A stretch of 64,000 bases of DNA from an uncultured Ilumatobacter sp. (GTDB taxonomy: Bacteria; Actinomycetota; Acidimicrobiia; Acidimicrobiales; Ilumatobacteraceae): assembly GCA_905480335.1 (NCBI GenBank), contig CAJQPY010000011.1, positions 62,001-126,000 on the forward strand. Direction: 5' to 3'. Below are positions 2,242 to 19,583 of this stretch, in pieces. A model generated the notes under the pieces. That model did not search any database, was not told the DNA's origin, and was given only the letters and a program-made list of their open reading frames with translations. Positions within the stretch are counted from its first letter, which is position 1, and each line of letters begins with the position of its first letter. Position numbers and translations under genes: made by a program.

Positions 2242-2254
2242 AGAAGCGGCGGCG

Positions 2255-3117: not shown

Positions 3118-3205
3118 TACCAGGCAACCTACCGACCGCAGCGGGACCAGACCAGCCTGCGGATGGTGTTCATTGTCTGGGTGCCGTCGGCCCCGCCGTC
3201 ATCCG

Positions 3206-3697
3206 TCAGGCCAACCGCTCAGCGGAGTCGTCCAGTGCCTGAACGAATCGCTGGAGCAGACCAGCGAGATCCGATCGCTCCTCGAGCGTGAATTGACTGA
3301 GGATGAGTGCCATCACGTGGGAGCGGCGTGAGGCGACTGCTGCGTGGCGGCTTCGGCCCTCTTTTGAGATGCGAACCATTACGACCCGTTTGTCGTCGTC
3401 CGCTGCGTACCGCTCGGCGAGACCGTCGGCGACGAGGCGTTGCACAGCTCGCGTTGCGCTTGATGGGTCGATGCGGAGCCGCTCGGCGAGGTGCTTCATC
3501 GTTCGCTCCTGTCGAGACAGCAGGTCGAGTGCATCCATCTGTCCGGGTTCGAGTGGATCGTCGTCGCCGAACAGATAGTCCCTCAAGTGTTGGGTCCACG
3601 CACCGCGGCGCATCTCGGTCCAGGCTCGTCCGATCCGAATCGCGTGCTCGACGTCAATCGGATTATTGAAGTCAACGGATTCAGATGTTTGGAACAT
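3206..3697 (-). CDS. MarR-family transcriptional regulator
   Basis: A 163-aa winged-helix repressor. The recognition helix region (MKHLAERLRIDPSSATRAVQRLVADGLAER) and wing (DDKRVVMVRISKEG) are typical of MarR, flanked by dimerisation helices at both ends. I start at ATG 3697. Reading back to 3940 adds Arg/Ser-rich sequence that runs into the divergent gene. It is transcribed away from the phospholipase D gene across a 110-bp shared promoter region, so it may control both. The ligand cannot be inferred. Confidence 0.85.
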   Translation of the reverse strand: MFQTSESVDFNNPIDVEHAIRIGRAWTEMRRGAWTQHLRDYLFGDDDPLEPGQMDALDLLSRQERTMKHLAERLRIDPSSATRAVQRLVADGLAERYAADDDKRVVMVRISKEGRSRHAAVASRRSHVMALILSQFTLEERSDLAGLLQRFVQALDDSAERLA

Positions 3698-3807
3698 TGC
3701 TTTAGTGAAGATACCGACGTGGCACCCGTCGCAGCGGGCCGGAGCAATGAGGCAGGGGTGGACGTGTCGCCCAACGATTTGGCCGCCCGCTGGTTGACTG
3801 AGAGTGC

Positions 3808-4983: not shown

Positions 4984-5050
4984 CGACCACGTGCCCGACG
5001 TCGCAGCACGGTTGCAGTCCCTCGGTGCAAGGATCGAGTGTGAGGTGCTC

Positions 5051-5122
5051 ATGATGAACAAAATCGAACGAACCTCCACCAACGCCGAAGCTGAACCGAT
5101 CCGGACGCTGCAGCAGCCATGA
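5051..5122 (+). CDS. Possible 23-aa leader peptide before the flavoprotein gene
   Basis: A short frame beginning MMNKIERT and ending with TGA at 5120-5122, which overlaps the ATG of the next gene as ATGA. A purine-rich GAGGTG lies 4-9 nt before its first ATG, better than anything directly before the downstream gene. This would allow coupled translation into the flavoprotein gene. The peptide itself has no recognisable features, so it may be only a translational loading device or chance. Confidence 0.25.
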   Translation: MMNKIERTSTNAEAEPIRTLQQP

Positions 5123-6222
5123 CCACTCCCACTGCTATCGCCGTTGACGGCGTCCTCGTCGTCGGGGGTGGCTATGCGGGAGTGCACGCCGCCCGATCGG
5201 TCATCCGCGCCGGCCGCCGTGCGTTCATCATCGATCCGACCGGTCGCCACGATTTCGTCACCCGACTCGCTGCCGTCGCCGGCGGAACCGCGCCGGAGAG
5301 TGATGCGTCGGCATCATTGAGCGACTTCAGCGACGACGTGATCGTCGGGTCGATGGCCTCGATCGTGGATGGTGCGGTGACCCTCAACGACGGGCGCACA
5401 TTCACCGCCGATGCGGTCGTCGTCACGGCGGGCGCAGTCCCGCTCGCACCATCGATCGAGGGACTCGACTTCGCCTTGCCGCTCCGAACCGCGGCGGACG
5501 CTTCAAGGCTGCGCGCGAAGATCGACATTGCGTCGAGCGTGGTGATCGTGGGTGGTGGTGCGACCGGGGTGCAGCTGGCCGGCGCGGTCGCAGCCAAACA
5601 CCGGAGCGTCGCCGTCACCCTCATGGACGGCGCCCAGACGCTGCTCGCCGGGCTCGGCGCCGCAACCGGTGGCGATGCTGCGCGCATTTTGGGCGATCGG
5701 GGGGTCGACGTCCGGCTTGGATCCGACGTCGACGAGATCGGCGAGGGCTCCGTGAACGTTGCCGGGGACATGTTCGAAGGGTTGCCGGTCTGGGCCGCGG
5801 GGTACACCGCTCGCGCCGACGACTTCGGGTTTCCCGTCGAGCGATCGGGCCGCATCGACGTGGACCAGTTCCTTCGTGTGCGCGGCTGGAGTCGAACGTT
5901 CGCTGCGGGCGACGTTGCGGCGCACCGCGATGCGCAGGGTCGTGAGCTGCCAATGTCGGCGCAGATCGCCGTCCAGGCGGGCGAGGTGGCGGGTCGCAAC
6001 GCGCTGCGGCTGCTTCGTGGCGACACGCTCGACCGTGCCCGTTTGTCGCACCGGGGTTGGGTGTTGGACCTCGGCGGTTTCCGCGGGCTGGCCGAGTTCG
6101 GCCCGGTGACGCTCTCAGCACCGTTCCTCGACCTGGTTCCGCCGGTGCTGCACTGGGCGATCGATGTCAAGCACTTGATCGAGACCCGTGGTCTCGGCGG
6201 GCTCTCCGACGCGCCGAGCTGA
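5119..6222 (+). CDS. FAD/NAD(P)-dependent oxidoreductase, NDH-2-like
   Basis: A 367-aa two-dinucleotide-binding-domain flavoprotein. The N-terminal FAD Rossmann motif is GGGYAG (residues 16-21), the central NAD(P)H Rossmann motif is VVIVGGGATGVQLAG (about 142-156), and the C-terminal FAD-contact AAGDVA is at about 262. This is the plan of type II NADH dehydrogenases and AIF/FSP1-like quinone reductases, which transfer electrons from NAD(P)H to a quinone without proton pumping. It lacks an obvious membrane anchor. Substrate is inferred only from the family; ferredoxin reductase-like roles are possible. Confidence 0.8.
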   Translation: MTTPTAIAVDGVLVVGGGYAGVHAARSVIRAGRRAFIIDPTGRHDFVTRLAAVAGGTAPESDASASLSDFSDDVIVGSMASIVDGAVTLNDGRTFTADAVVVTAGAVPLAPSIEGLDFALPLRTAADASRLRAKIDIASSVVIVGGGATGVQLAGAVAAKHRSVAVTLMDGAQTLLAGLGAATGGDAARILGDRGVDVRLGSDVDEIGEGSVNVAGDMFEGLPVWAAGYTARADDFGFPVERSGRIDVDQFLRVRGWSRTFAAGDVAAHRDAQGRELPMSAQIAVQAGEVAGRNALRLLRGDTLDRARLSHRGWVLDLGGFRGLAEFGPVTLSAPFLDLVPPVLHWAIDVKHLIETRGLGGLSDAPS

Positions 6223-6252
6223 CGCACCGTCCGGCTGGGGTGACCGGCCCCG

Positions 6253-8532
6253 CTAATCCCGGCCGAGTTCGGTGTCGCCGGCAGCGTCGTGGTCGACCTC
6301 CTGGTCATCGTCAAGTTCGATGATGACGTCGACGAGCGAACCCGTGAACGAGAACGGCCCAAGGTGTCGGCCGGTCCGGTCGTAGTCGGCCACGGTCGTT
6401 CCTCGGTCGAGGCCGATGTCGAGTCCAGACCACGAGATCATCAGCCAGAAGATCTGATCCGTTTCCATCCGGCCGACTTCGACACCATCGACGAGCAGTG
6501 TGCCGGTGCCGTGCGGAAACGGCCCGTCGCCCGGGTTGCGGTTCATTCGGAAGCCGAGCTCGGTGGCACCCACGGGAATCGGGCTGTCGGACGAGACGAC
6601 CTGATGGGTGCCGCCGATGTTGAGGTCGTGAACGAGATGACCATCGCGAACGAACAGCGAGTAGCCGCACGTGGCGTCGCCGTGGGCGATGAGCACGCCC
6701 TGGGTGCCGTCTGTGCACGGTTGTACCCGAGCCGTGATCGCGTAGCTGCGACTGCGGAGGTCCGGCGCGACGTCGGACGGGAGATGACCCATGCCTGCGG
6801 TGAACACGTAGCGCCGTCGGGCGCCGTGGAAGCGCTGGGCCGTCTCGGCGAACCGCTCACCGAACCGGTCGTCGAGTGGCAGGACGTGGTTTGCTCGGGC
6901 TTCGCTCCACCACAGTTGAATCAGCTCGCTCAGCCGATCGGGCTCGGTGTCGGCGAGGTCATGGCATTCGTTAAAGTCGGTGCCGAGGTCGAAGAGTTCC
7001 CAGCGGTCCTCGTCGAATGAACTTCCCGGGCGGTGCCAGGCCACTGCCTTCCATCCGTCGTGCCAGATCCCGCGGTGGCCGAACATCTCGAAGTACTGCA
7101 CCGATTTACCGGTTTCCGCCGCAGGGTCGACCACGGCATCGGCAAAGCTGATCCCGGTCATCGGTGTGGTCTCGGTCGGCGGATCGAGTCCGATCAGTTC
7201 GAGCACAGTCGGCGCGAGGTCGGACGCGTGGCAAAACTGATGACGCAGCTCACCTGCTCCGGAAGTCGCGGTCTCGCGAGTGCGGATGACCAACGGATCG
7301 CGGATCCCACCGCCGTGGGTGTTCTGCTTGTACATCCGCAGCGGCGTGTTCGCCGCCATCGCCCAGCCATGCGGGAAATTCGAATGGGTGTCGGGGCCCC
7401 CGATGTCGTCGAGCCGTGCGAGCTTGTCGTTAAACGACTCCCTGACCATGTTGAACGGCGCCATCGCGTTCACGTAGCCGAGTGGTCCGCCCTCCTGGCT
7501 GGCCCCGTTGTCGGAGAGGACCACCACGATCGTGTCGTCGAGTTGACCGGTGTGTTCGAGTGCGGCGATCACTCGACCGAGGTGCTCGTCGAAGTGGTGG
7601 AGCATCGCAGCGTAGGCGCCGGCCAGCCGGCTGAACAGGCGGTGCTCGTCGGGTGAATGATCAGTCCATGCCTTCACGCCGAGGTTGCGGGGCGGCAGCT
7701 CGGTACCCGCGGGCACGATGCCGAGATCGATCTGTTTCGCGAGGCGGCGTTCGCGCTCGACGTCCCAGCCGTGCTCGAACTCCTGGGTGTATCGGTCAAT
7801 CAAGTCGCGCGGTGCCTGGTGCGGTGCGTGGCAAGCTCCGGGCGAGAGTTGGAGATACCACGGAGCATCGGGGCTCGCAGCGTGATGATCCGTGAGATTG
7901 CGGATCGCCTCGTCGACGAGGTCTTCGGTCAGGTGATAGCCGGTCGAATGGTCGCCGGCTGCGGTGACGTGGGTGTTGTCGCGTACGAGCTCCGGTGAGT
8001 ACTGGTCGGTCTCGGCGTCGAGGAAACCGTAGAAACGATCGAAGCCGCGGCCGAGCGGCCACCCGTCGAACGGCCCGGTCGGCCCGGTCTCGGTCGTTCG
8101 CGTGGCGTGCCACTTACCGATCATGTAGTTGCGGTAGCCGGAGGGAGCGAGCATCTCGGCGATCGTCGGCGCGTCGGCGGCGATCTTGCCGCGATAACCC
8201 GGGAAGCCGCTGTCGAAGTTCGCGAGACAGCCCATCCCGACTGCGTGGTGATTACGCCCCGTCAACATCGACGCCCGAGTCGTCGAGCACATCGCAGTGG
8301 TGTGGAACCCCGTGGCCCTGATGCCATCGGCCGCCAGTCCGTCGATCGTGGGGGTCTCGATCGATGAGCCGTAGCAACCGAAGTCGGAGAAGCCGACATC
8401 GTCGAGCAGCACCATCAACAGGTTGCGCCGACGGTCGGCGTCGCCCGTGGAGTCGGGCCACCATGGTGTCGACTCCGCAATCGTCGTCCCGATGGTGCCC
8501 GCGAAGGGCTGGTCCGCACCGCGCTCGCTCAT
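6253..8532 (-). CDS. Sulfatase (arylsulfatase AtsA-like)
   Basis: A 759-aa type I sulfatase. The N-terminal metal-binding LLDDVGFSDFGCYG contains the Asp pair. Residues 82-86 (CSTTR) occupy the formylglycine site and are followed by the conserved LTGRN. The LSDNGAS metal-ligand segment lies mid-protein, and a C-terminal beta domain follows. The usual CxPSR/CxPTR signature has Thr in place of Pro. Such enzymes hydrolyse organic sulfate esters after FGE converts the Cys. No signal peptide is visible, so it is probably cytoplasmic. I start at ATG 8532, which lets a 64-bp divergent promoter exist; GTG 8550 is an alternative. The neighbouring TauD-type dioxygenase supports an organosulfur role. 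Confidence 0.88.
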   Translation of the reverse strand: MSERGADQPFAGTIGTTIAESTPWWPDSTGDADRRRNLLMVLLDDVGFSDFGCYGSSIETPTIDGLAADGIRATGFHTTAMCSTTRASMLTGRNHHAVGMGCLANFDSGFPGYRGKIAADAPTIAEMLAPSGYRNYMIGKWHATRTTETGPTGPFDGWPLGRGFDRFYGFLDAETDQYSPELVRDNTHVTAAGDHSTGYHLTEDLVDEAIRNLTDHHAASPDAPWYLQLSPGACHAPHQAPRDLIDRYTQEFEHGWDVERERRLAKQIDLGIVPAGTELPPRNLGVKAWTDHSPDEHRLFSRLAGAYAAMLHHFDEHLGRVIAALEHTGQLDDTIVVVLSDNGASQEGGPLGYVNAMAPFNMVRESFNDKLARLDDIGGPDTHSNFPHGWAMAANTPLRMYKQNTHGGGIRDPLVIRTRETATSGAGELRHQFCHASDLAPTVLELIGLDPPTETTPMTGISFADAVVDPAAETGKSVQYFEMFGHRGIWHDGWKAVAWHRPGSSFDEDRWELFDLGTDFNECHDLADTEPDRLSELIQLWWSEARANHVLPLDDRFGERFAETAQRFHGARRRYVFTAGMGHLPSDVAPDLRSRSYAITARVQPCTDGTQGVLIAHGDATCGYSLFVRDGHLVHDLNIGGTHQVVSSDSPIPVGATELGFRMNRNPGDGPFPHGTGTLLVDGVEVGRMETDQIFWLMISWSGLDIGLDRGTTVADYDRTGRHLGPFSFTGSLVDVIIELDDDQEVDHDAAGDTELGRD

Positions 8533-8596
8533 CTCCTCGAAGGTAGCCACTGCGTACTGTGTAGTGAACACCCGTACTTCGAACTGAGGACCCATC

Positions 8597-9481
8597 ATGC
8601 CCAACGTTTCAACACAGCTCGAGGTCGATCGACTCTCCGGGTCGCTGGGCGCCGAGATCCGCGGCCTCCGCCTGGCGGCGGCGACTTCTGAGGACGCGGA
8701 ACGGATTCATGCGCTTCTGATGGAGCATCAGGTCCTGTTCTTCCCCGGCCAGTACCCGACGCCGGATGAACATCTCGCATTCGGCCGGCTGTTCGGCGAG
8801 CTCGAATCCCACCCGAATCTGGATCTCGATGTCGAGCGCGAGCGTCCCGAGTTCTTTGAGCTCCACGCGATGGATGGTGCGGGCGGTGTCGCCGACGAGT
8901 GGCACAGTGACATCACGTTCGAACCGCACCCGTCGAAGTTCGCCATCCTCCACATGAAGGTCTGTCCGGCGGTGGGAGGCGACACGCTGTGGGCCAACGC
9001 CTACAGAGCGTACGACGAGTTGTCGGGACCGATGCAGGCGATGTGTGACGGCCTGACGGCACTCCACGACGCCAGCGCCCACCTCGTGCCGGACAAGATG
9101 CACATCCATCCCGTCGTGCGTGTCCATCCTGAAACCGGCAAGCGGTCGCTGTTCGTCAACGAACACTTCACCCGTCGGATCGTGGAGCTCAGCGATGCCG
9201 AGTCGACGATGTTGCTCACCTACCTATCGCAGTGGATCCATCAGCCACGCTTCACGGTCAGATACCGATGGAGTGCCGGCACAGTCGCGATGTGGGACAA
9301 CCGGTGCACGCAGCACCATGTCCTGAACGACTTCGTCGGCGAACGCGTGATCCAACGTGTCACGGTGATGGGGGATGACCCGCAGGCAGCCGTGCCGTCA
9401 CCTTGGGAGCCCTACGGTTCGAAGACGGCATCGTTCTGGCGGGACACCAAAATGCGCCAGCAACTCACTCGGCAGCGCTGA
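8597..9481 (+). CDS. TauD/TfdA-family Fe(II)/2-oxoglutarate dioxygenase
   Basis: A 294-aa non-haem iron dioxygenase. The HxD iron ligands are H103 and D105 (WHSDITF), the distal His is at 240-241 in WDNRCTQHHVL, and the 2-oxoglutarate-binding Arg is R254. These are the complete catalytic set of TauD (taurine), AtsK (alkyl sulfate) and TfdA enzymes, which hydroxylate next to the sulfonate or sulfate group to release sulfite, sulfate or an aldehyde. It is divergent from the sulfatase, which favours a sulfate-ester or sulfonate substrate, although this family is broad. Confidence 0.88.
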   Translation: MPNVSTQLEVDRLSGSLGAEIRGLRLAAATSEDAERIHALLMEHQVLFFPGQYPTPDEHLAFGRLFGELESHPNLDLDVERERPEFFELHAMDGAGGVADEWHSDITFEPHPSKFAILHMKVCPAVGGDTLWANAYRAYDELSGPMQAMCDGLTALHDASAHLVPDKMHIHPVVRVHPETGKRSLFVNEHFTRRIVELSDAESTMLLTYLSQWIHQPRFTVRYRWSAGTVAMWDNRCTQHHVLNDFVGERVIQRVTVMGDDPQAAVPSPWEPYGSKTASFWRDTKMRQQLTRQR

Positions 9482-10180: not shown

Positions 10181-10218
10181 GCGGCGTTCGCCAACCTGCT
10201 TGCGGATCCCAAAAACAA

Positions 10219-10248
10219 CGAAAACCCCCACCGAAGCGAGGGTTTTCG
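10219..10248 (-). terminator. Rho-independent terminator, probably the original tRNA-Thr terminator
   Basis: A perfect 9-bp stem (CGAAAACCC paired with GGGTTTTCG) with a 12-nt loop. On the minus strand it is followed by TTGTTTTT, giving a proper U-tract. It abuts the displaced tRNA 3' fragment, so I read it as the terminator that originally served the tRNA-Thr gene on the minus strand. It would also stop transcription arriving from the nitroreductase gene. Confidence 0.8.
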
Positions 10249-10287
10249 TGGAGCCCAAACCGAGAGTCGAACTCGGGACCTACGCAT
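10249..10287 (-). repeat. Displaced 3' end of tRNA-Thr (putative att half-site)
   Basis: Thirty-nine nucleotides identical to 19508-19546 except at 10258 (A versus G at 19517). They cover encoded CCA, acceptor 3' strand, T-arm, variable loop and the anticodon 3' stem of tRNA-Thr(CGU), and the match stops inside the anticodon loop. The same orientation as the intact gene, together with the adjacent terminator, makes this the partner direct repeat expected after tRNA-directed integration. Confidence 0.85.
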
Positions 10288-10664
10288 GAATACTGAGTGG
10301 CCAACGCACCACTTCCCGGCCGATCCGCATAGGAGACAATTGCCTACGGGTTATCGACAGTCTCAAGCCAGACGCCCTGTTCGAAGCCGCCGCGTTGAGA
10401 GTGTGTGTTCTGGGCGAGTAGTCCATACTGCTCGGACACCTCCGGCCGAAATGTCATTGAATGCTTGTCGGAGTGTCCGGTCGTGTTCAGACGGAGTTGT
10501 CTCGGAGCACCCTTGGCTGGAGCACCCTTGGCTTAGGCACCAGCACCAACGTCTTTGTCCACATCAAAAAAGTTTTCTCGTGGACATGTAACAAATTCGG
10601 TTCCGTCGACGATCACTCTGTTACTCGCCCACCGACGGGCGGGCCACCTCAAGGGAGAAATACC
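10288..10664 (+). promoter_or_regulatory. Leader and promoter region of the Tad operon
   Basis: About 375 bp without a convincing gene between the left repeat and the pilin gene. It contains a perfect tandem duplication at 10504-10533 and ends with a strong Shine-Dalgarno (AAGGGAGA) 6-7 nt before the pilin start. It must hold the promoter for the whole pilus operon. I could not single out -35/-10 boxes with confidence. Confidence 0.5.
10504..10533 (+). repeat. Perfect 15-bp tandem duplication upstream of the pilin gene
   Basis: GGAGCACCCTTGGCT occurs twice head to tail with no gap. It lies about 130 bp before the Flp start, within the probable regulatory region. It could be a pair of regulator half-sites or a recent slip duplication. 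Confidence 0.75.
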
Positions 10665-10847
10665 GTGAATCGAATTCTTATCAACCTCGCAAACCGCTAC
10701 CGCGAACTCGGCCAAGACACTGACGACACCGGGGGTGTCGCCGCTGAGTACGGCGTTCTACTCGCCGGAATCGTTGCTGTAGTCGCCATCGCCGCAGCCG
10801 CACTCGGCACACGTGTCGGTGGCCTATTTGACGGAATCCTGGCCTAG
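10665..10847 (+). CDS. flp: Flp-type pilin
   Basis: A 60-aa pilin starting at GTG 10665 behind an excellent Shine-Dalgarno. The mid-region carries the prepilin peptidase site G|GVAAEY, giving Glu at +5 and Tyr at +6 as in Flp pilins, followed by the hydrophobic helix GVLLAGIVAVVAIAAAALG and a short tail. After processing it would leave a mature subunit of about 36 residues that polymerises into thin Flp fibres for adhesion. It is the first gene of the Tad operon. Confidence 0.92.
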   Translation: MNRILINLANRYRELGQDTDDTGGVAAEYGVLLAGIVAVVAIAAAALGTRVGGLFDGILA

Positions 10848-10851
10848 TCGC

Positions 10852-11313
10852 ATGAATCTCCCTTTCCGTCCCGGTCGGCGTTGTTACGACGTCGGACTGG
10901 GACGGACCGGGGTAGACGGTCTCGTTGCTGAGCCCAGCGATGAAGCCAAGACCGAACGCGACGGTGGCGTTGCCGCAGTGGAGTTCGCGCTTGTGCTGCC
11001 TCTGTTGATTATGTTGATCTTTTCCGCAGTCACCGCCGGCAGCATCGGTGCAGCCCAACTGCACGTGAACTCCACGTCCCGAGATGCTGCCCGCGCCGGC
11101 GCACTCGATACCGGTAGCGGATGTGCTTTAGCCGCCGCCCGACTGGCTGACGCGACAGCAAGCCTCGGCAGTACCAACTGCATCAGTGTTGCGACATGTC
11201 CTGGTGTCGACTCCGTCGTCCGTATCGACGCGACCCGGGCTGTCACCATCCCCTTCATCGGCGACCGCACGATCGATCTCTCCTCAACGGCCAGCTACCG
11301 CTGTGAGATCTGA
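10852..11313 (+). CDS. tadE: TadE-like minor pseudopilin
   Basis: A 153-aa protein beginning 5 nt after the pilin stop. Around residue 37-60 it has DGGVAAVEFALVLPLLIML, a prepilin-like cleavage site with Glu at +5 and a single hydrophobic helix, then a Cys-containing extracellular domain. TadE/TadF pseudopilins prime or cap Flp assembly. An upstream in-frame ATG at 10813 lies within the pilin gene and is rejected. The unusual 35-residue N-terminal extension before the helix is basic then acidic. Confidence 0.85.
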   Translation: MNLPFRPGRRCYDVGLGRTGVDGLVAEPSDEAKTERDGGVAAVEFALVLPLLIMLIFSAVTAGSIGAAQLHVNSTSRDAARAGALDTGSGCALAAARLADATASLGSTNCISVATCPGVDSVVRIDATRAVTIPFIGDRTIDLSSTASYRCEI

Positions 11314-11349
11314 TCAGTTCAAGCCAACTCAACCCAGAACGCACTTCTC

Positions 11350-12312
11350 GTGAACAAGACCGACACCTCCGATCCCACACGTGATGCGGGGACGATCGCG
11401 GTCCTTGTAGCCATCGCGATGGTGCCGATCGTCGGTCTGTTCGCCGTCGTCGTGGACGCCGGCCGGGTCATCGCCGAACGCCAGCAATTACAGACAGCCG
11501 TCGAGGCTGCAGCCCTCGCCGGAGCAATCGACCGCCGCGCCGGGATTTCGGCTTGTTCCAGCGCCACCACACGCGTCGAGAACACTGTTGGTACCAGCCC
11601 GACTGTTACCTGCTCCACAACCGGAACTGCCACGGGTGGAACCGTCACCGTCAGCGCCTCCACCACTAGCAACCTCAGCCTCGGAGCGCTGTTTGGACGA
11701 TCCTCAGCCGACATCACCACGACTGCGGGTGCACGTTCCGGAGGCGCCACAGGCGTAACCGGTGTTCGGCCGCTGTCGATCTGTGCTGAACATCCAGCCC
11801 TGCTGGCGTGGCTTGCCTCGGGCTTGACCGACACAGCGACGTACTCGGTCGGTATCGAATCTGACGGAACAAGCTGTGGGGGCGACATCGCGGGCAACTG
11901 GGGTGTGCTCGACTTTGATGGCGGATCGAACTCCATGGCGATCACCCAGGAATGGATCAGCAACGGATACGGCGGCGAAATTTCCGTCCCAAGCGTCATC
12001 GGAGGTGACCCTGGCATTCCCAGCCCAGCATTCGACCTGACGGACATAATCGACAAGTCCATCGTTGTGCCCATCTTCGCCACCGCCACTGACACAGGTC
12101 AGAACGCGCAGTACTCGGTCGTTGGTTTCGTCGGCATTGTTATCGAAGGCGCCACGTTGAACGGCCCCGCCAGTGAGCGTCACGTGCTTCTGCGGTTCAC
12201 TACCGACACCGGTACGGCCACCACTACCAGCTGCTGCACAGACGATGCGGAGATCAATGCTGGCATCACCGCTGCACGCTTATGCAACTTAGACGGAATA
12301 GGAGACTGCTGA
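11350..12312 (+). CDS. tadG: TadG-like pilus assembly protein
   Basis: A 320-aa protein starting at GTG 11350. The N-terminus carries the Tad domain: RDAGTIAVLVAIAMVPIVGL as the membrane anchor, then VVDAGRVIAERQQLQTAVEA, the signature that follows it. The remainder is a Ser/Thr/Gly-rich secreted domain with several cysteines and no von Willebrand domain, shorter than proteobacterial TadG. It probably sits at the outer side of the membrane near the pilus base. Its stop overlaps the next start. Confidence 0.82.
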   Translation: MNKTDTSDPTRDAGTIAVLVAIAMVPIVGLFAVVVDAGRVIAERQQLQTAVEAAALAGAIDRRAGISACSSATTRVENTVGTSPTVTCSTTGTATGGTVTVSASTTSNLSLGALFGRSSADITTTAGARSGGATGVTGVRPLSICAEHPALLAWLASGLTDTATYSVGIESDGTSCGGDIAGNWGVLDFDGGSNSMAITQEWISNGYGGEISVPSVIGGDPGIPSPAFDLTDIIDKSIVVPIFATATDTGQNAQYSVVGFVGIVIEGATLNGPASERHVLLRFTTDTGTATTTSCCTDDAEINAGITAARLCNLDGIGDC

Positions 12313-12971
12313 TGTCCCGCAAACCTGAGACCTCATCGACCAAACCACCCCGCATTCGGGCTCATAGTTCAAAGCTGGGCCTGCAACGGATTGCGATCCC
12401 ATTCATCGCATTCGCCACGACTGCAGGGGGTCTTTTCATGCTGACCACAAACGGGACCTCAACCGAAGAGGTCAATCCTGATGGGATTGCGACCGTTGTT
12501 GTCTTAAGTGCCTTACCGGCAGGCGCGCCGACAGCCGACGTCATCGCATCCAGCGAGGTACGCATGCTGCCCGGCAGCGCTCGTGCCGAGGGCGCGCTCA
12601 CCGAACTCGACGCGATTCCGTCGGGCGTGTTGGCCGCCGATCTGGTTCCCGGTCAACAGGTGCTGATGACCTCAGTCGCCGATGATGTCGTCGATGCACT
12701 GGGCGCCGGTCTAGTGGCCGTGTCGGTCCGTCTCGATCCGCAACGCTGGGCCGGACCGCTCACGACGACCGGCGATACGGTCACTGTGCACGATGTTGGT
12801 GACAATGCCACGACGGTGATCGCCCGCGAGGTTCGCATCGTGTCCGCGCCCGACCCCTCAGAACTCGGGCCACGGTCCGAGCAGGTCATCACCCTGGCCG
12901 TTCCCGAGAACACGGCCACAGACGTCATAACCGCTGCGGCTGACAACCGTTTATGGCTGGTGGGATCATGA
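12312..12971 (+). CDS. cpaB: CpaB/RcpC-like SAF-domain pilus protein
   Basis: A 219-aa protein with one N-terminal membrane helix (about residues 24-45) and an SAF-type segment: a first block around SSEVRMLPGSARAEGAL, then AADLVPGQQVLMTSV, the pattern by which CpaB/RcpC proteins are recognised. In Gram-negatives CpaB helps the secretin gate. In a monoderm actinobacterium it probably organises the exit through the wall. The start ATG at 12312 shares a base with the preceding TGA; the longer reading from 12282 lies inside tadG. Confidence 0.82.
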   Translation: MSRKPETSSTKPPRIRAHSSKLGLQRIAIPFIAFATTAGGLFMLTTNGTSTEEVNPDGIATVVVLSALPAGAPTADVIASSEVRMLPGSARAEGALTELDAIPSGVLAADLVPGQQVLMTSVADDVVDALGAGLVAVSVRLDPQRWAGPLTTTGDTVTVHDVGDNATTVIAREVRIVSAPDPSELGPRSEQVITLAVPENTATDVITAAADNRLWLVGS

Positions 12972-13771
12972 TTACCTTCCGCTCACGCAGCGACGACAGC
13001 GCCGAACGACACGGCATCAATCCGAGCGAGGCCCCAGTTGTGGCTGTGGTGTCACCGAAAGGCGGGAACGGTAAGACCACCGTGTCGTCGAACCTGGCCG
13101 TTGCCCTCGCGCACCGGACTGACAGCGTCATCATCGACCTGGACGTCCACTTCGGTGACGTCCAGTACGCACTGCGGATGTGCCCTGTCCACCGACTTGA
13201 CGATCTCGTTGACGCGGATAGCCGTCGGGACCCGATGTCAATGCTAAGTACCCACCCCAGCGGACTGGACGTTCTATGCGCGCCGAGCGACCCGGTGGCA
13301 GCGGACCGCATGTCGGTCGGTGATGCCTTTGGTGTGGTCGACCGCATCATCGCTGCGAACCGGCCGGTGATTCTCGACACGGCTGGTGGGATTAGCAACT
13401 ATTCACTCGGAGCGCTCGACCGTGCCACACGAGTGGTGATGGTGTGCGGCACGGATGTCCCCTCGGTGCAGGCAGGACGCAAATTGTTGGACACCATGCG
13501 TCGGCTCGACATGGACCTCAGCCACGTCGACCTACTCGTTAACCGTTCCGATGCCTGCGTCGGCCTCTCCGTCGACGATGTCGAGACCGCCCTGGACTGT
13601 CAGGCAGTGCTCGCCGTGCCCGAGCACTCGAGTCTGGCCGCCGGCATGAACTCAGGCTCACCTGTCACCGAATCGAGCCCCCGTTCATCTGTCGCTGCTG
13701 CGTTCCACCGCTACGCGGATCTCGTTCTCGGTCTGGACCTCGCCGCCGGCACTCGTCGGGGACGACGATGA
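12968..13771 (+). CDS. tadZ: TadZ/CpaE-like MinD-family ATPase
   Basis: A 267-aa P-loop ATPase with the deviant Walker A KGGNGKT at residues 31-37, a DLDVHFGDVQ segment for the switch/Walker A' region, and the ILDTAG block. CpaE/TadZ proteins place the pilus machine, often at the pole. The receiver-like N-terminal domain found in longer CpaE members is absent, so only about 20 residues precede the ATPase core. It overlaps the CpaB stop as ATGA and the TadA start likewise, showing tight translational coupling. Confidence 0.87.
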   Translation: MITFRSRSDDSAERHGINPSEAPVVAVVSPKGGNGKTTVSSNLAVALAHRTDSVIIDLDVHFGDVQYALRMCPVHRLDDLVDADSRRDPMSMLSTHPSGLDVLCAPSDPVAADRMSVGDAFGVVDRIIAANRPVILDTAGGISNYSLGALDRATRVVMVCGTDVPSVQAGRKLLDTMRRLDMDLSHVDLLVNRSDACVGLSVDDVETALDCQAVLAVPEHSSLAAGMNSGSPVTESSPRSSVAAAFHRYADLVLGLDLAAGTRRGRR

Positions 13772-15231
13772 GTCTCGCCGCTCGTGTGGACCGGGCCCAC
13801 TCCACCTCCGACCGCGACGAACATCCGACCGCCGCGGCTCAAGGTCCGTCGATGAACGGTGCAGAACAAGATCACACCATCGAACAGGGAACGACCAAAG
13901 AGTCACTTGTCGACGAGTTGCCCATCGCTGATACGACCCCCGTCGGAAACAGCGGACAAGAACGCATCACGCGGCTCGACGAGGTGATAACCGAGCAGGG
14001 CCATTCCAGCACCATCGACCGAGACGTCGTGCTTCGTGTCGTCGGCGAGGTCCGCGAGGCCATCGGCGACATCCCTGACCGCTCTCGACTTTCCGATGAC
14101 CGCCTGCGAGCCCTCGTCGAACAACAGACCGTCGCCGTGTTGTCTGTCCAGGACGAACAACTAGATCGCGTGACGGTTACTGCCATCCGCCGGGCTGTCG
14201 CTGCTGAACTACTTGGTTTCGGTCCACTGCAAGAGTTGCTCGACCGCGACGATATATCCGAGATCATGGTGAATGGTCATCGCAACGTTTTCGTCGAACG
14301 GAGCGGTCGCCTTGAAGCCGCTGACACCGTGTTCGAGAATGAGGAACAACTAATGCTCGGAATCGAGCGGATGGTTCGTACCTCGGGACGTCGCGTTGAC
14401 CAGTCCTCACCGATGGTAGATGCCCGATTACCGGACGGTTCACGACTCAATGTTGTACTCCCTCCGTTGGCCGTGGATGGGCCATCAGTCACCATTCGCA
14501 AGTTCACTGAACAACATCTGACCAGCACCGAACTTGTCTCCCGTGGCGCCATGACCGATGCTGCCGCGGCGCTGCTACAGGCGGCAGTGGAGCGGCGCAT
14601 GAACATCATTGTGAGTGGTGGTACCGGCACCGGTAAGACCACCATGCTCAATGTTCTGTCGTCGAACATCGGTCGCACCGAACGGGTCGTCACCGTCGAA
14701 GATGCGGTGGAGCTCAGCCTTGACCTTCCGAACCTCATCCGACTCGAGGCGCGGCCCGCCAACACAGAAGGAGCTGGCGAAGTCACCATCAGGGATCTGG
14801 TGCGTAACAGTCTGCGCATGCGGCCGGATCGAATCATCGTGGGCGAGGTCCGCGGTGCAGAGGCCCTCGACATGCTGCAGGCAATGAACACTGGGCACGA
14901 CGGTTCGTTGTCGACCGTTCATGCCAACACGCCTCGCGATGCTGTCCGGCGACTCGAAACGATGGTTCTCTTCGGAGGGATCGATCTGCCGCTGCGAGCT
15001 ATCCGGGAACAGATCGCCTCTGCGGTCGACCTGGTAGTGCAACTCACCCGCCTCAACGATGGCCGTCGCGTGGTGTCGTCGATTACCGAGGTTGTCGGTC
15101 TGGAGGGTGATGTGGTGTCAATTGCCGACCTGTTTACCCGTCAGATGATTGGCGACCGCGAGGCGCTAACCCCCACTGGGGTGATCTCACGCACCCTCGG
15201 TGTCGTCGAAGATCGCGAAGCCAGGTTATGA
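13768..15231 (+). CDS. tadA: TadA/CpaF secretion ATPase
   Basis: A 487-aa type II/IV secretion ATPase that powers Flp assembly. Residues 1-80 are poorly conserved and polar. The N-terminal domain (about 85-260) has EIMVNG and the GRRVDQSSPMVDARLPDGSR Arg/Asp boxes. Walker A is GGTGTGKT at 284-291, followed by the Asp box, the IIVGEVRG Walker B and the STVHAN His box. These are complete, so the motor should be active. It is coupled by ATGA overlaps to tadZ and tadB. Confidence 0.94.
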   Translation: MSLAARVDRAHSTSDRDEHPTAAAQGPSMNGAEQDHTIEQGTTKESLVDELPIADTTPVGNSGQERITRLDEVITEQGHSSTIDRDVVLRVVGEVREAIGDIPDRSRLSDDRLRALVEQQTVAVLSVQDEQLDRVTVTAIRRAVAAELLGFGPLQELLDRDDISEIMVNGHRNVFVERSGRLEAADTVFENEEQLMLGIERMVRTSGRRVDQSSPMVDARLPDGSRLNVVLPPLAVDGPSVTIRKFTEQHLTSTELVSRGAMTDAAAALLQAAVERRMNIIVSGGTGTGKTTMLNVLSSNIGRTERVVTVEDAVELSLDLPNLIRLEARPANTEGAGEVTIRDLVRNSLRMRPDRIIVGEVRGAEALDMLQAMNTGHDGSLSTVHANTPRDAVRRLETMVLFGGIDLPLRAIREQIASAVDLVVQLTRLNDGRRVVSSITEVVGLEGDVVSIADLFTRQMIGDREALTPTGVISRTLGVVEDREARL

Positions 15232-16073
15232 CCACTGGTTCCGCCACTATCGCATCGCTCGCCGTCGGTACCGGTGTCGCGGTTGCTCTCACGTGGTTGA
15301 TCGACGCTGGTGTACGCCGTCGCATTAGCCGTGCTGCGCGCACACAGATCGGCCTCGAACGCGAGGTCACTCCCCGGGAACTTCCCCGCGGCAGCACGCC
15401 CATGGTTGCCGCTGTCATTTCCACCGCTCTGATCGCGGTCGCTCTGGTTGGACCTGTCGGCATTCTCCTTGGGGCCCTTCCGCCTGTCATCTGGCGCGTC
15501 GTCACGTCACGTCGGCGGCGTGCGCGTCGTACCGCGCTCGACGCAGCCCTCGGCGGTGTACTTCAGCTTCTGATCGATCAGTTGCGGGTCGGACGTGACC
15601 TCACGGGTGCCATGCAGGCGATCGTGGACCGCGCTGATGCCCCTCTTGACGAACTCCTCGAGAACGTTCTGGCCGCAGTGCGTTTAGGCGCTCCTATTCA
15701 CGAGGTGCTTGAGGAGATGGCTTCTGCGGAGAGCAGCCGCCACCTTGATGTCATTGCGTCGGCGATCGGGCTGCACGCGCACCACGGGGGGTCGCTCACC
15801 GAGATCCTGACCACCGTTGCTGAATCGATCGATGCCGAGGACAACCTCCGTCGCGAAGTGGAGACACTCACGGCCGACGCCCGCCTTAGTGCCCAGGTGC
15901 TGCTCGGGCTTCCAGTGGCGGCACTTGCTCTGTTGTCGCTGCTCAGCCCTGGGTACGCCACGCCGCTCTTCTCCACATCGGCTGGCCAGACGATGTGCAT
16001 CATTGCTGGAATTCTGGGTAGCGCTGGCTGGTGGTGGCTGCGCACACTGAGCCGCGTGGGAGATGCGTTATGA
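15228..16073 (+). CDS. tadB: TadB inner-membrane platform protein
   Basis: A 281-aa T2SSF-domain membrane protein. A first hydrophobic segment near the N-terminus, another pair around 60-95, the cytoplasmic T2SSF helical domain (LLIDQLRVGRDLTGAMQAI through SLTEILTTVAESID) and two C-terminal helices follow the TadB plan. With TadC it forms the platform that TadA acts on. Start and stop both overlap neighbours by 4 nt. Confidence 0.9.
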   Translation: MTTGSATIASLAVGTGVAVALTWLIDAGVRRRISRAARTQIGLEREVTPRELPRGSTPMVAAVISTALIAVALVGPVGILLGALPPVIWRVVTSRRRRARRTALDAALGGVLQLLIDQLRVGRDLTGAMQAIVDRADAPLDELLENVLAAVRLGAPIHEVLEEMASAESSRHLDVIASAIGLHAHHGGSLTEILTTVAESIDAEDNLRREVETLTADARLSAQVLLGLPVAALALLSLLSPGYATPLFSTSAGQTMCIIAGILGSAGWWWLRTLSRVGDAL

Positions 16074-16963
16074 CCAGCACCGCATTAGGTGTGTTGCTGG
16101 CTGCGACCGGTGTCGCGTTGATCGCCAACCTAGTGACCTCGCGCCGAGTTCAGCTCTCAGTAAGCGCCAGCAGCCCCGTTGCTAGCGAGGTTGACCTAGA
16201 CCACCAAGAGGACCACGACATCTCCCGTGAATCGGACGATGTCCCCGTCTTACCGTCTTACCGTCGATCCGCACTCACCGGTAGTGCTCGACTCAACTCG
16301 ATGCGAGTAGATGCCATCGGGCTTGTGAACGCCACACCAGAACGGCTCCGCGATGTGGGCCGCACCCAGTTGGTGGCCACCGGCGTTATCGCCACTCTGA
16401 TGGTCCTGGTGGTGGTGAATGACCCGACGCCCGCATCACTTGTTGCTGCGGTCATTGTCGCCGGCGGTGCATGGCAGATGCCTCTAATTGCTGCTCGCCG
16501 CCGCGAAACAGACCGTTTACGCACCCTTGATCGCGAACTTGGTGATGCTCTCGGAGAACTAGTCATGGGGGTCGAAGCAGGGCTCACTCTCGAGGCCGTA
16601 TTAGTCCGCTATGCGCAGCGCCGTACATCGCCTCTCGCGTCGGAGTTCGACCAAATGACCCAGTCGGTCCAACTCGGGGCTACCCGACGCGAAGCCATCA
16701 CTGCATTCACCAACCGAAACGACACTCCGACGGTTCGACTCTTCGCAGCCGCCGTCGAACAGAACCAGACGCTCGGCACCCCACTTGCGGGCGTGCTGCG
16801 GCAGCAGGCCACCACGATCCGCCGGCATCGGCGCCAGGCAGCAGAGACCGATGCTGCGAAGTTGTCGATGAAGATGATTTTCCCGACAATTTTCTGCATT
16901 CTTCCGGTGCTGCTCATCGTGGTTGTCGGCCCGGCGATCGTCCGACTGGTGGAGGTCTTGTGA
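16070..16963 (+). CDS. tadC: TadC inner-membrane platform protein
   Basis: A 297-aa second T2SSF-domain protein: an N-terminal helix, a paired helix region around residues 100-135, the T2SSF core (LGDALGELVMGVEAGLTLEA through TPLAGVLRQQATTIRRHRR) and a C-terminal helix. The start ATG 16070 overlaps the tadB stop as ATGA; an upstream in-frame ATG at 16031 lies within tadB. A variable polar stretch (about 30-65) separates the first helix from the rest. Confidence 0.89.
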   Translation: MTSTALGVLLAATGVALIANLVTSRRVQLSVSASSPVASEVDLDHQEDHDISRESDDVPVLPSYRRSALTGSARLNSMRVDAIGLVNATPERLRDVGRTQLVATGVIATLMVLVVVNDPTPASLVAAVIVAGGAWQMPLIAARRRETDRLRTLDRELGDALGELVMGVEAGLTLEAVLVRYAQRRTSPLASEFDQMTQSVQLGATRREAITAFTNRNDTPTVRLFAAAVEQNQTLGTPLAGVLRQQATTIRRHRRQAAETDAAKLSMKMIFPTIFCILPVLLIVVVGPAIVRLVEVL

Positions 16964-17107
16964 TGTCTCCCTTCCCACGTCACTATCGGGATGTCGATCA
17001 CGGTGTGGACGTGTCGAAGGGTGGTGAACGCTGCGAGGGACGTCGGGTACGCCCCGGTAAGTTTGGGCGATGCGCCACAGTCAGTCCTAGGGCTGAAAGA
17101 CTGGAGT

Positions 17108-17734
17108 ATGTTCGAGAGTCTGGCTGCATCGAGCATTGCCGCGGTTGCTATGTGGCCAGCTTCGGTCGCCATCTGCGGTCGTCGGCTCGCTTTCGCGTCT
17201 ACGTACATCACCTCGACAATGGTCCTAGCGCTCGCAGCAGGTGCGCTGACGCGCTACCTTCCCGTTTCAGCAATGGGTTGGCCGGTCCATGCGTCTCTGG
17301 GCGCTGCGGCCGGTGTGCTGGCCGCACAGGTAACAATCGACATCTGGGCTCGACGGCTTCCGCTTCGGCCAAGCATCACAATGGCTGCGATCGTGCTGAT
17401 CTCACTTCCGATTGGATCCGCCACCTCGCGGTTGTGGCCCGCCGTTGTGTGCGCGACGCTGATGACAGCGATCAGCGCAACGTTGATGCTGACATCGGGG
17501 CGTCGGTTGGGCCGCGGGGACGTGTACTTGTCCCCGCTGTTGGGGGCGATCATTGGGATTGTCAATCCGTGGGGTTTGTTGACCGCATGGCTAGCCACCA
17601 CAGTGTTGGCAGCGCTGTTCGCACTCGCAGCACTTTTTATCGGAACGGCAAAACGGGACACATTGATTCCCTATGGCCCGTTCATGGTGGCCGGCACCGT
17701 CATTGCGGTAGCAGCAGGGGTCGCTGCACAATGA
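17108..17734 (+). CDS. tadV: Prepilin peptidase, A24 family (TadV/CpaA-like)
   Basis: A 208-aa polytopic membrane protease that processes Flp and TadE before assembly. The catalytic aspartates are D78 (TIDIWARRLP) and D138 in the GxGD motif GRGD. About six hydrophobic helices surround them. The family's N-methylation domain is absent, as in TadV. The start is uncertain: ATG 17108 has a close GGAG, while ATG 16991 in frame would add 39 residues of non-membrane sequence. About 145 bp after tadC are then unassigned. It overlaps the sigma gene by ATGA. Confidence 0.82.
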   Translation: MFESLAASSIAAVAMWPASVAICGRRLAFASTYITSTMVLALAAGALTRYLPVSAMGWPVHASLGAAAGVLAAQVTIDIWARRLPLRPSITMAAIVLISLPIGSATSRLWPAVVCATLMTAISATLMLTSGRRLGRGDVYLSPLLGAIIGIVNPWGLLTAWLATTVLAALFALAALFIGTAKRDTLIPYGPFMVAGTVIAVAAGVAAQ

Positions 17735-18306
17735 ATTTGCCGGTGTCCAACTTGAGTTTCCGCCGCCGCGGACGCGTCACGGTTCGCGCTCTGAAGAAGG
17801 GCGACGCTTCGGCTTGGTCGTTGCTGGTCGCTGAACTCGGACCGAAGATTACCGGTTACGCCAACCGCATGGGTGCGCGCGATGGTGACGACGTGGCGGG
17901 TGCCACCTTTGAGACCCTGGCGCGAACGATTGGCACATTCGAGGGGTCAGAGAGCCAGCTGCGGTCGTATGTGTTTTCTATTGCCCATGCCCGCATTGTT
18001 GACCAACTTCGCCGGTCTACTAGGCGTAGCGAGGTGTCGATCGAAAACACGCTGGTACTCCTTGAAGCGGACGAGTCGACTGAGGAGACGTTCAGCGATC
18101 CCGATCTGCTGGCTGCGCTCGGTCGTCTGCCCGAGGATCAACGAAGAATGCTTGACCTTCGATACGTCGTTGGCCTGTCGACGAAGGAGACCGCTCGCGC
18201 GGTCGGGAAGTCAGAGGTGGCGACTCGCGTAGCCATAAGTCGAGCGTTGTCAAAGTTAAAGGAACTCATCGTCGCTAACCTCCGGGAAGGCGGTGACGAC
18301 GCATGA
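17731..18306 (+). CDS. Sigma-70-family (ECF-like) factor inside the Tad operon
   Basis: A 191-aa sigma factor. Region 2 is at about 25-90 (DDVAGATFETLARTIGTFEG then LRSYVFSIAHARIVDQLRR) and region 4 at about 125-185 (LPEDQRRMLDLRYVVGLSTKETARAVGKS and VATRVAISRALSKLKELI). It is linked by 4-nt overlaps to the prepilin peptidase before it and the membrane protein after it, so it must be expressed with the pilus genes and may drive them. A longer open frame extends upstream to 16960 but lies wholly over the peptidase gene. Confidence 0.85.
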   Translation: MNLPVSNLSFRRRGRVTVRALKKGDASAWSLLVAELGPKITGYANRMGARDGDDVAGATFETLARTIGTFEGSESQLRSYVFSIAHARIVDQLRRSTRRSEVSIENTLVLLEADESTEETFSDPDLLAALGRLPEDQRRMLDLRYVVGLSTKETARAVGKSEVATRVAISRALSKLKELIVANLREGGDDA

Positions 18307-18890
18307 GCACCTTGACGTTCGGTACTTTCCTGGCGGCCGTCGCATCGCTATTGTTCGGAGCTAGCCGCATTTCGTTTCTGAGGCGGCGTCTGCACCGTCG
18401 GCTTGCCGCTCAACGACGCGATGAGCTTCCCTTGAGCTCTGATGCGGTGATGATCGAGAACCTTGCATCGCTGGCTGTGGCATCGTCAATGGCCGTTGAC
18501 GCACTGGGTGGTCGGTGGCAGCGCCGAATCGTCGCGGCAGTCGGGGCCATTGGAGTGTTCGGGTGGGCGGGTAGCTGCTGCTTCGGTGGTGGCGTCGTCC
18601 TTGCCTCCACCGGCAATCTGCCCGACCCAGTGCAGCGTGCGGTGGCCGACGTCTTGGAGGTCGTGAACATTGAAGTGCCACGACCCGGCTCCTCGACGGT
18701 GATCGCGCCTAGCGGCCTTGATGATGTTGTCGATACAAATATCAACAAGAACGGCGACGTCAATGACGATGGTGGGCTTGGTGATAGCGGAAACGCGCCC
18801 GGCGCTAGTGGGAACGCCGGCAACGGTGGAAACGACAGCGGCGTTGATGATGATGCGCCGGGCAATGAAGGGAAAGCCGCCAGCAACTAG
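18303..18890 (+). CDS. Membrane protein paired with the Tad sigma factor (candidate anti-sigma)
   Basis: A 195-aa protein with a short N-terminal hydrophobic stretch, a basic region (RRRLHRRLAAQRRDE), one clear helix at about 75-100 (IVAAVGAIGVFGWAGSCCFGGGVVLA), the segment LPDPVQRAVADVLEVVNIEVP, then a low-complexity Gly/Asn/Asp tail. LPDPVQ-type segments after a single helix are common in actinobacterial proteins encoded directly after sigma factors. With the ATGA overlap this suggests a membrane-bound partner of the sigma factor. No zinc-binding HxxxCxxC is present, so it is not a ZAS protein. Confidence 0.6.
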   Translation: MSTLTFGTFLAAVASLLFGASRISFLRRRLHRRLAAQRRDELPLSSDAVMIENLASLAVASSMAVDALGGRWQRRIVAAVGAIGVFGWAGSCCFGGGVVLASTGNLPDPVQRAVADVLEVVNIEVPRPGSSTVIAPSGLDDVVDTNINKNGDVNDDGGLGDSGNAPGASGNAGNGGNDSGVDDDAPGNEGKAASN

Positions 18891-19507
18891 TCGTTTCGCT
18901 AGCGGTCTATTCCGAGGATGGGCCAGCAACTAACGCTCGAGTAATGTCGGCACCGGAACAGCGAGTAAGACGGCGAACTTTGCCGAGACGGCGACTAGAT
19001 ATACGTAAATCCGCACGTCAGCTAGCGCCACGACTTCTGGATGGCCGGAGGGTTGTGGGTCAGCTCCGGTATTTCGGCTGGGGCTCCGCAACCATCTCGC
19101 TCGGCGAAGCACTATTCTGCCGCAGGCCCTCCTGGCCGGTTATGTCATCACTCGTTCGTGAATCAACGCAAGTTTTGTCGAGCCGGTACCAGGAACGTAT
19201 TCGAGATTGTCTGCAACAGGGCCAATAATTCATGCCACATCAACCGGAAACCTTCTCGGCGCCAGCTTGAAGGTGGCCCACAACTGCGGGCAGGTGGTGG
19301 CAAGAACTTTCAACCTGCCGCAGGTCGCCTGAATCCGTTGGGACCGCACGGTCAAAGCCCGTCGAAGACGTCAGGTGCACAAGCCAGCGAGTTGCTGCGC
19401 GGTGTTGTCCCGCGTCTGTCCCGCGAACAAGGGGGAATTCCGGTGAAAAACGGCGAACCGCCACCGGCGGCCAACCTGCAGAAACATGATCCTAGCAGGT
19501 AAAACCT
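18891..19507. other. Right end of the island: no intact gene, candidate integrase-arm repeats
   Basis: About 615 bp between the last Tad gene and the tRNA. Short open frames exist on both strands but none has convincing composition or motifs. A minus-strand frame around 19010-19110 contains EVVALADV, vaguely like the start of a tyrosine-recombinase catalytic domain, but it is interrupted and not claimed. At 19406-19414 and 19417-19425 TGTCCCGCG is repeated directly with an 11-bp period, about 85-100 bp from the tRNA 3' end, where integrase arm-type sites would be expected. Confidence 0.5.
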
Positions 19508-19583
19508 GGAGCCCAGACCGAGAGTCGAACTCGGGACCTACGCATTACGAGTGCGTTGCTCTACCAACTGAGCTATCTGGGCA
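19508..19583 (-). tRNA. tRNA-Thr (anticodon CGU), CCA encoded
   Basis: Seventy-six nucleotides on the minus strand fold as a standard cloverleaf. The acceptor GCCCAGA pairs with TCTGGGC, the D-arm is AGCTCAGTTGGTAGAGC-like, the anticodon stem ACGCA/TGCGT encloses CTCGTAA (anticodon CGT), and the T-arm is CCGAG-TTCGACT-CTCGG. Discriminator U and CCA are encoded. Its 3' half is the integration target of the Tad island. Confidence 0.97.

Follow-up and report, generated by a model that had tools for sequence, protein, structure and literature searches.

A Tad pilus operon between tRNA-Thr(CGU) and a displaced copy of its 3′ part in an uncultured Ilumatobacter, and the use of this tRNA gene as an integration hotspot in the Ilumatobacteraceae

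The tad locus, or Widespread Colonization Island, is a single-locus pilus system that, in the account given by Planet in 2003, is reportedly transferred horizontally with high frequency, a view reached from gene histories. Here we describe a Tad pilus operon of an uncultured Ilumatobacter sp. (Ilumatobacteraceae) for which, in contrast to transfer read from gene histories, the insertion site and the scar are themselves visible. The operon lies in a 64,000-nt stretch of contig CAJQPY010000011.1 (hereafter the window), between the gene for tRNA-Thr(CGU) and a displaced fragment of that gene, and the interval between the two (the island) was very probably formed by site-specific integration of a mobile element into tRNA-Thr(CGU) by a tyrosine integrase.

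Several described systems share parts of this arrangement. In Islander (PMC4383910), a restored tRNA gene and a displaced fragment mark the ends of an island, and the filter demands an integrase gene inside it. The window island has the same end-marking, an intact tRNA gene and a displaced cognate fragment, and its anticodon-loop type of integration subsite is also listed there, but no integrase gene was found in it. The Dehalococcoides ssrA islands (PMC3146451), 15 of which lack integration modules and have been called possible cis-mobilizable elements, resemble it in that cargo flanked by attachment (att) sites but lacking integration genes sits at an RNA gene used by full elements too; they involve a serine recombinase, ssrA and cargo that includes rdhA genes, whereas here the target is tRNA-Thr, the hotspot is one of tyrosine integrases and the cargo is a pilus operon. 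An actinobacterial Tad locus on mobile DNA shared between species is known from the 54-kb TAD element of Propionibacterium acnes, found also in C. leptum and ‘P. humerusii’ (PMC3316620); that element is larger, plasmid-like and equipped with a ParA gene, and the term tRNA does not occur in the available portion of its main text. Frequent transfer of single-locus systems such as Tad is also reported in the excerpt of PMC6668835. Within the family, integrase-bearing elements of five genomes (G005, G158, G156, G022 and G035 in our numbering) occupy the same tRNA gene, with the integrase gene about 100 bp behind it and a repeat of 11-12-bp period in between; those of G005 (on another contig) and G158 have, like the window island, a copy of the tRNA end. 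They differ from it in carrying the integrase, and a search of the G158 element for Tad genes found none.

Freely searchable literature titles and abstract openings, a search that did not extend to subscription papers, yielded no Tad locus bounded by a tRNA gene and its fragment, and none is described in the excerpts of PMC6461280, PMC7542103 and PMC2621215. A first-pass annotation of this DNA had called a pilus island without an integrase unusual, which holds for the combination and not for its parts, as mobile Tad loci (PMC3316620) and integrase-less islands (PMC3146451) are both on record. Islands at tRNA genes, integrase-less islands and mobile Tad loci are each known, and the window offers a good, well-documented further case in which these familiar processes are cleanly combined.

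The single tRNA gene that ARAGORN finds in the window is separated by 9.2 kb, occupied mostly by one complete Tad operon, from the displaced copy of its 3′ part. The ends of the island are made up as follows, attL and attR being the two att sites:

19507..19582, minus strand: intact tRNA-Thr(CGU) (ARAGORN), its 3′ half read as the element-supplied copy (attL side); C32 as in G002, G007 and G008, C67 as in G004, G005 and G006
10249..10287, minus strand: displaced 39-nt 3′ part of the tRNA (attR), 38/39 identical, with the T67 allele
10218..10248, minus strand: displaced original terminator of the tRNA, a 14-pair hairpin and T tail, with homology to the sequence directly following tRNA-Thr in G007 and G002

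By our count, the 39-nt copy corresponds to positions 38-76 of the tRNA, beginning with the final anticodon-loop base and reaching CCA, and its orientation relative to the intact gene is correct for a tRNA-integrated island. A search of the own genome with 10200-10300 listed as matches only the query place and the tRNA (E 1.9e-12). Directly behind the copy, on the same strand, lies the 14-pair hairpin (stem 10249-10218) with its TGTTTTT tail; the hairpin scan found one such structure against a shuffle mean of 0.9 and by itself carries little weight. The first-pass annotation had proposed these flanks, giving the copy (10287-10249, 38/39) exactly and the tRNA (19583-19508) off by one; its displaced terminator with a U-tract on the correct strand is borne out by the hairpin, the T tail and the homology to G007 and G002.

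That homology comes from an empty site, which the first-pass annotation had predicted as tRNA-Thr joined directly to the terminator and which we found in two of the nine same-genus genomes searched (G001-G009; several contigs end within a few kb of the tRNA). In G007, a single-contig genome, c24, gt2 and duf3291 (74-76% identical) precede the tRNA, and the nitroreductase and sulfatase genes (74% and 77%) follow it, all in the order and orientation of the window. The tRNA is joined directly to a homologue of the displaced terminator, with 35/44 nt identical when the tRNA part is excluded and an alignment score of 22 versus a maximum of 9 in 500 shuffles. On the tRNA side, the junction in G002 is of the same form (33 identical positions in the stretch, score 18 versus a shuffle maximum of 9), and its contig ends beyond it. 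Synteny rests on the five genes named above, and in G002 also on phnA. No Tad genes were found in 40 kb around the G007 tRNA or in the G002 stretch examined, and neither a Tad locus at this place in all relatives nor the fragment without the locus was seen in the nine genomes. The junction in G007 is clean and the DNA further downstream is not, since 8.3 kb of other genes lie between the terminator and nitroreductase; this segment is another change at the same hotspot. It spans about 140-8413 of locus L037, has no counterpart in the window and includes a long repetitive open reading frame (ORF) of 1054 aa.

At the remaining sites, no tRNA copy was found in G008 (5.6-kb contig), in G001 and G003 (20 kb each) or on the 7.9-kb contig of G004, a genome that matches G006 at 94% identity along 4.2 kb ahead of the tRNA, and no terminator homology was found behind the tRNA in G008, G001 and G027. 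The sites of G005 and G006 are occupied by other DNA. For G009, there was no tRNA-region match at E 1e-6, the only match being one of 73% at 5.9e-6. Near the displaced terminator, the window also carries sulfatase and TauD-like dioxygenase genes (6253-9481), and TauD had no match in 20 kb behind the G007 tRNA.

The sole mismatch between copy and tRNA, at position 67, bears on which of the two 3′ parts came with the element. The displaced copy has T67, as does the tRNA of G002, G007 and G008, and the intact window tRNA has C67, as in G004, G005 and G006, together with C at position 32, as in G002, G007 and G008. The intact gene resembles a composite of a host 5′ part and an element-type 3′ part, and the displaced 3′ part seems to be the host’s own. 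This is the allele pattern that integration predicts; concerning a single base, it is on its own no more than suggestive. As a separate observation, the T-stem of tRNA-Thr(CGU) in G001/G003 is set apart, as a block, from that of the remaining members of the genus, as if the tRNA 3′ half had been exchanged earlier too.

The same tRNA gene receives other elements in the family sample, which comprised 221 genomes; matches were scored from a few candidates per genome (3 in the tRNA search, 7 for TadA, 8 for the integrase and 4 for the element end), and counts of absence therefore give lower limits of presence. In same-genus G005, the gene of a tyrosine integrase (PF00589, E 5e-25) begins 98 bp behind tRNA-Thr(CGU). 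Another contig of G005 carries a TrwC-type relaxase (E 8e-68) together with an identical 44-nt tRNA copy, both probably parts of the same element. The five best integrase matches listed, namely the G005 query, G156 (70%, one stop inside), G158 (69%), G022 (67%) and G035 (66%), are each located roughly 100 bp behind tRNA-Thr(CGU). The six matches that follow in rank (43-47%; G016, G239, G232, G001, G234 and G008) are on contigs other than those of the listed tRNA-Thr of these genomes. Distant integrases also stand beside tRNA-Thr(CGU) in G020 (35%), G232 (29%, by coordinates) and G117, and a 116-aa integrase piece (61%) lies 3 kb behind it in G159. In G158, assembled as a single contig, the tRNA (3912999-3913072) and an identical 43-nt copy (3882460-3882502) enclose a 30.5-kb element with an integrase and a TrwC-type relaxase, and in G027, of the same genus as G158, the tRNA is directly followed by an apparent hairpin recognized by eye. 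Among the five integrase genomes, the TrwC-type relaxase was looked for and seen in G005, G158 and G035.

Copies of the tRNA end also occur in further genomes. G006 contains a 5-kb island with a 49-nt tRNA copy on the same contig, in which no integrase was found; this island (L033 6072-11256) encodes an FAD-dependent oxidoreductase, a Rieske-type oxygenase and a PaaX-like regulator. Copies lie on the contig of the tRNA in G006 and G193, and on other contigs, where ARAGORN detected no tRNA, in G020, G023, G034 and G043. The copy matches start at tRNA positions 26-33, at or just before the anticodon loop, and small differences of the window copy at these positions are consistent with decay. In G193 (L217 321-3273), two partial 3′ tRNA matches follow each other (51 nt at 321-371; 32 nt at 2829-2860, E 0.004), as in tandem islands at one tRNA. 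The survey for other cargo at this tRNA that the first-pass annotation had proposed was thus positive in G006, G005 and G158, with further integrases behind the tRNA in G156, G022 and G035, and tRNA-Thr(CGU) is an integration hotspot across the Ilumatobacteraceae.

A further feature of the island lies immediately behind the intact tRNA:

19402..19506, minus strand: element end beside attL, with CGCGGGACA as a direct repeat of 11-bp period whose two units lie at 19425-19417 and 19414-19406 and are putative arm-type sites of an integrase

These 105 nt are common to the window and the G006 island (local score 39), as compared to a mean of 9.9 and a maximum of 15 in 300 shuffles and to scores of 9-13 at 12 other sites. 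Arm sites of phage integrases provide the basis for comparing the repeat. Across 45 distinct tRNA-Thr(CGU) sites, taken as they happened to be fetched with 192-3000 nt behind the tRNA, 7-mer repeats with a period of 10-12, lying no more than 120 nt from the tRNA, were present at 7/8 sites with an integrase versus 3/37 without (Fisher p 2e-5), the window being one of the latter three. The window repeat had been noticed by eye before testing, and because 45/2000 shuffles of the window’s own 200 nt gave an 8-mer repeat with spacing 8-16, the repeat alone is only moderately unlikely, and the site comparison and the G006 homology carry the weight. We regard the repeat as putative left-over arm-type sites. 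Of the matches listed for the element end across the 221 genomes, those in the window and in G006 (two places, E 3e-6 and 7e-5) are the only conspicuous ones, the remaining rows (E ≥0.001) being taken for chance without individual inspection, and the exact 22-base element-end pattern had no match in IMG/VR. The G005 motif is present on both sides (attL and attR), and similar letters are visible on the attR side in G158. Of the marks of a cis-mobilizable element (CIME), the window island has both tRNA-derived repeats and an arm-like repeat on one side only.

The cargo consists of 11 plus-strand genes that occupy 10665-18890:

10665..10847, plus strand: flp-like pilin, 60 aa; 85% over 55 aa to a G096 ORF, with a Pfam class III signal at E 0.049, below cut-off
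10813..11313, plus strand: TadE minor pilin (PF07811, E 4.8e-12)
11350..12312, plus strand: TadE/G-like (Tad) protein, TadG-like (PF13400, E 5.6e-12)
12282..12971, plus strand: CpaB/RcpC-like (PF16976, E 0.0047, below cut-off); position conserved in relatives
12953..13771, plus strand: CpaE/TadZ-like ParA/MinD ATPase (PF10609/PF01656; TIGR03815 CpaE_hom_Actino, E 2.8e-16, below cut-off)
13768..15231, plus strand: TadA/CpaF ATPase (PF00437, E 1.6e-61; TIGR03819, E 1.5e-98, below its cut-off)
15228..16073, plus strand: TadB (PF00482, E 4.7e-11)
16031..16963, plus strand: TadC (PF00482, E 1.4e-15)
16991..17734, plus strand: prepilin peptidase, TadV-like (PF01478, E 3e-5, just under cut-off)
17731..18306, plus strand: extracytoplasmic function (ECF) sigma factor (TIGR02937, above cut-off; PF08281, PF04542)
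18303..18890, plus strand: membrane protein; similar to an ORF in G096 (60% over 172 aa) and in other Tad loci, with no family above cut-off

The locus unites TadA, TadB, TadC, TadE-type pilins, CpaE/TadZ and a prepilin peptidase, and Pfam/TIGR matches together with conserved gene order agree with the first-pass description of one complete Tad operon. Flp, CpaB and the prepilin peptidase score below curated cut-offs and are named by position and by the order conserved in relatives. The membrane protein is possibly a partner of the ECF sigma factor. No secretin family was found among the family matches of the island proteins, as expected for a cell with one membrane. As the pilus genes form open reading frames and are accompanied by a dedicated ECF sigma gene, we would expect a functional, separately regulated Tad pilus to be made.

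The Tad proteins point away from the genus in which they reside. Compared with the window protein, TadA of same-genus relatives reaches 37-46% identity in 8/9 genomes and 56% in G003, and in the family as a whole at least 20 of 220 other genomes have a TadA match of ≥53%. The closest among the matches listed are G096 (83% over 435 aa; 78% over 473 aa in a second alignment) and G092 (87%, the gene being partial), which belong to a different genus of this family, here g13. In a TadA tree of 63 rows chosen by us and including two very long branches, the window, G096 and G092 fall inside the g13 group (support 100/99). Six concatenated Tad proteins likewise place the window within g13, and an exclusive clade of the eight g13 rows without the window was rejected (p-AU of the approximately unbiased test 6.7e-5), in a tree of 15 rows in which G092 was filled at 44% and the g13 test group was chosen after the first tree had been seen. 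RpoB, the yardstick of vertical descent (RecA was not found in the own genome), is 85% identical to that of G096 and 96% to that of G007. For five ordinary flank proteins, identity between G007 and the window is only 74-77%, and ten Tad-locus proteins of G096 are 60-85% identical, which appears closer than descent alone would give. The part alignable to G096, in pieces, spans about 10580-18705, or 88% of the interval between the tRNA ends, which leaves roughly 290 nt at one end and 800 nt at the opposite end without a match to the G096 Tad locus. Codon composition sets the island apart as well: G+C at third codon positions is 0.653-0.718 in nine island genes versus 0.758-0.858 in eight flanking genes, with no overlap, at an overall G+C of 0.612 in the island and 0.638 in the flank. 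Taken by sequence, the cargo most likely derived from genus g13, which would make this genus the donor and the Ilumatobacter lineage the recipient. No second case was encountered: among 99 loci around related TadA genes, many of them short so that a tRNA further off would be missed, 14 tRNAs were found, every one of them within the 79 loci of named genomes and thus outside the 20 family loci, with no clear displaced copy; 12 had no second match, L116 had an 18-nt match, and L183, a doubtful tRNA call, gave weak short matches.

Mobility genes were not detected in the island, as the first-pass annotation had stated for the integrase. A profile of 30 tyrosine integrases run in six frames gave nothing better than E 0.05, with a control at E 7e-163 in which the control integrase was itself part of the profile. 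No relaxase was found by tblastn with G005 proteins, other relaxase families not being sought by profile, and the pair of integrase and relaxase that characterizes integrative and conjugative or mobilizable elements is accordingly not seen. The own genome encodes four PF00589 proteins, none of which matches the hotspot integrase at E ≤1e-30.

On these data, we favor the following course of integration. A tyrosine-integrase element with Tad cargo would have recombined its att site with the part of tRNA-Thr(CGU) from the anticodon loop to the 3′ end, through an enzyme presumably of the kind found at the hotspot. The att copy of the element would have restored the tRNA 3′ half, the host’s own 3′ half with its terminator would have been pushed 9.2 kb away, and the arm-type repeat would have stayed beside the restored tRNA. 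The integrase gene may then have been deleted right behind the arm sites, or the element may always have been non-autonomous and have used an integrase in trans. Deletion suits the finding that the window and G006 diverge right where an integrase would sit, behind the arm sites, and the integrase was probably lost rather than never present.

Several observations weigh against this course of events. G004 has C67 without a visible island. The window repeat is of other letters (GGGACA type) and lies at position 82, as compared to integrase-site repeats that start at 48-60 nt, and only one-mismatch 7-mers were found for an arm repeat on the attR side of the window. G006 has a second copy of the element-end segment (91% over 264 nt), 2.85 kb away and inside a 206-aa ORF without a Pfam match. 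On all these grounds, the arm-site role of the window repeat is unproven. The profile of 25 tyrosine integrases, from which the five hotspot integrases had been left out and which recovered the held-out G158 integrase at E 2.5e-140, gave a best E of 0.07 in the six frames of the island, a search for tyrosine integrases only, and no integrase remnant was found there by tblastn to E 10 with the G005 integrase. As for the donor, no tRNA was found in 20 related family Tad loci (19 genomes, 4.7-20 kb stretches), and the donor form has thus not been seen; for this reason, the Tad locus would have reached the tRNA either in this lineage or in an unseen element. Finally, G096 and G092 are drafts with Tad contigs of 10.0 and 4.7 kb, and misplaced contigs would weaken the donor claim; the G+C of these contigs (0.655) is at the upper end of that of the other stretches of both genomes examined (0.62-0.66).

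The alternative that survives best is a variant of integration and differs from it in whether an integrase was ever on board: a cis-mobilizable, CIME-like cassette that never had an integrase of its own would have been moved by the integrase of a co-resident element at the same tRNA. We consider this possible, though clearly the less likely course. It would account for two islands, in the window and G006, that have no detectable integrase and share the same 105-nt end with different cargo; an integrase-bearing element is available at the same tRNA in same-genus G005, and the 51-nt copy and weaker 32-nt match in a row behind one tRNA in G193 are as in accretion. However, the shared end differs in sequence type from the ends of known integrase elements, no third copy of it stood out among the matches listed in the 221 genomes and the exact 22-base pattern had none in IMG/VR, and the four PF00589 proteins of the own genome do not match the hotspot integrase at E 1e-30 or better. 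A bolder form, which we put forward as a conjecture and hold slightly more doubtful still, is that the window and G006 islands represent a family of integrase-free, att-bounded cassettes with one shared end that swap cargo and are moved in trans by integrases at the same tRNA.

It is improbable that the Tad operon is old in the genus and was lost by relatives, the tRNA copy being an unrelated remnant of an earlier element. The close G+C of island and flank, and a TadA divergence from G096 about equal to that of RpoB, would agree with such a history, but the window Tad is nested within that of g13 rather than sister to it and same-genus genomes carry a different TadA lineage. Moreover, with flank proteins of G007 at only 74-77% despite an RpoB identity of 96%, the 60-85% identity of the Tad proteins to those of another genus is higher than we would expect under descent, the G096-alignable part fills most of the interval between the tRNA ends, and the empty site of G007 has no Tad. 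Partial copies of tRNA genes are known and this genome is a draft in 51 contigs, yet an origin by chance, by recombinational duplication or through faulty assembly, with no integration event, is very improbable for a copy that reaches a genome-wide E of 1.9e-12, is correctly oriented with its own terminator attached, carries the allele of unoccupied relatives, has the same kind of counterpart at the end of the G158 integrase element and lies inside one 132-kb contig.

Site-specific integration into tRNA-Thr(CGU) thus being the preferred explanation, the island matters for how Tad pili spread. The vehicle of horizontal Tad spread is rarely seen, and here its footprint is visible almost to the base. 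The finding also names an integration hotspot, tRNA-Thr(CGU), that is used across this actinobacterial family, and pilus transfer between genera becomes testable in a concrete place, given the empty site, a genus that may plausibly have been the donor and, in relatives, a likely family of enzymes. If the conjecture of exchangeable integrase-free cassettes were true, a surface appendage would travel in these bacteria as an exchangeable tRNA cassette.

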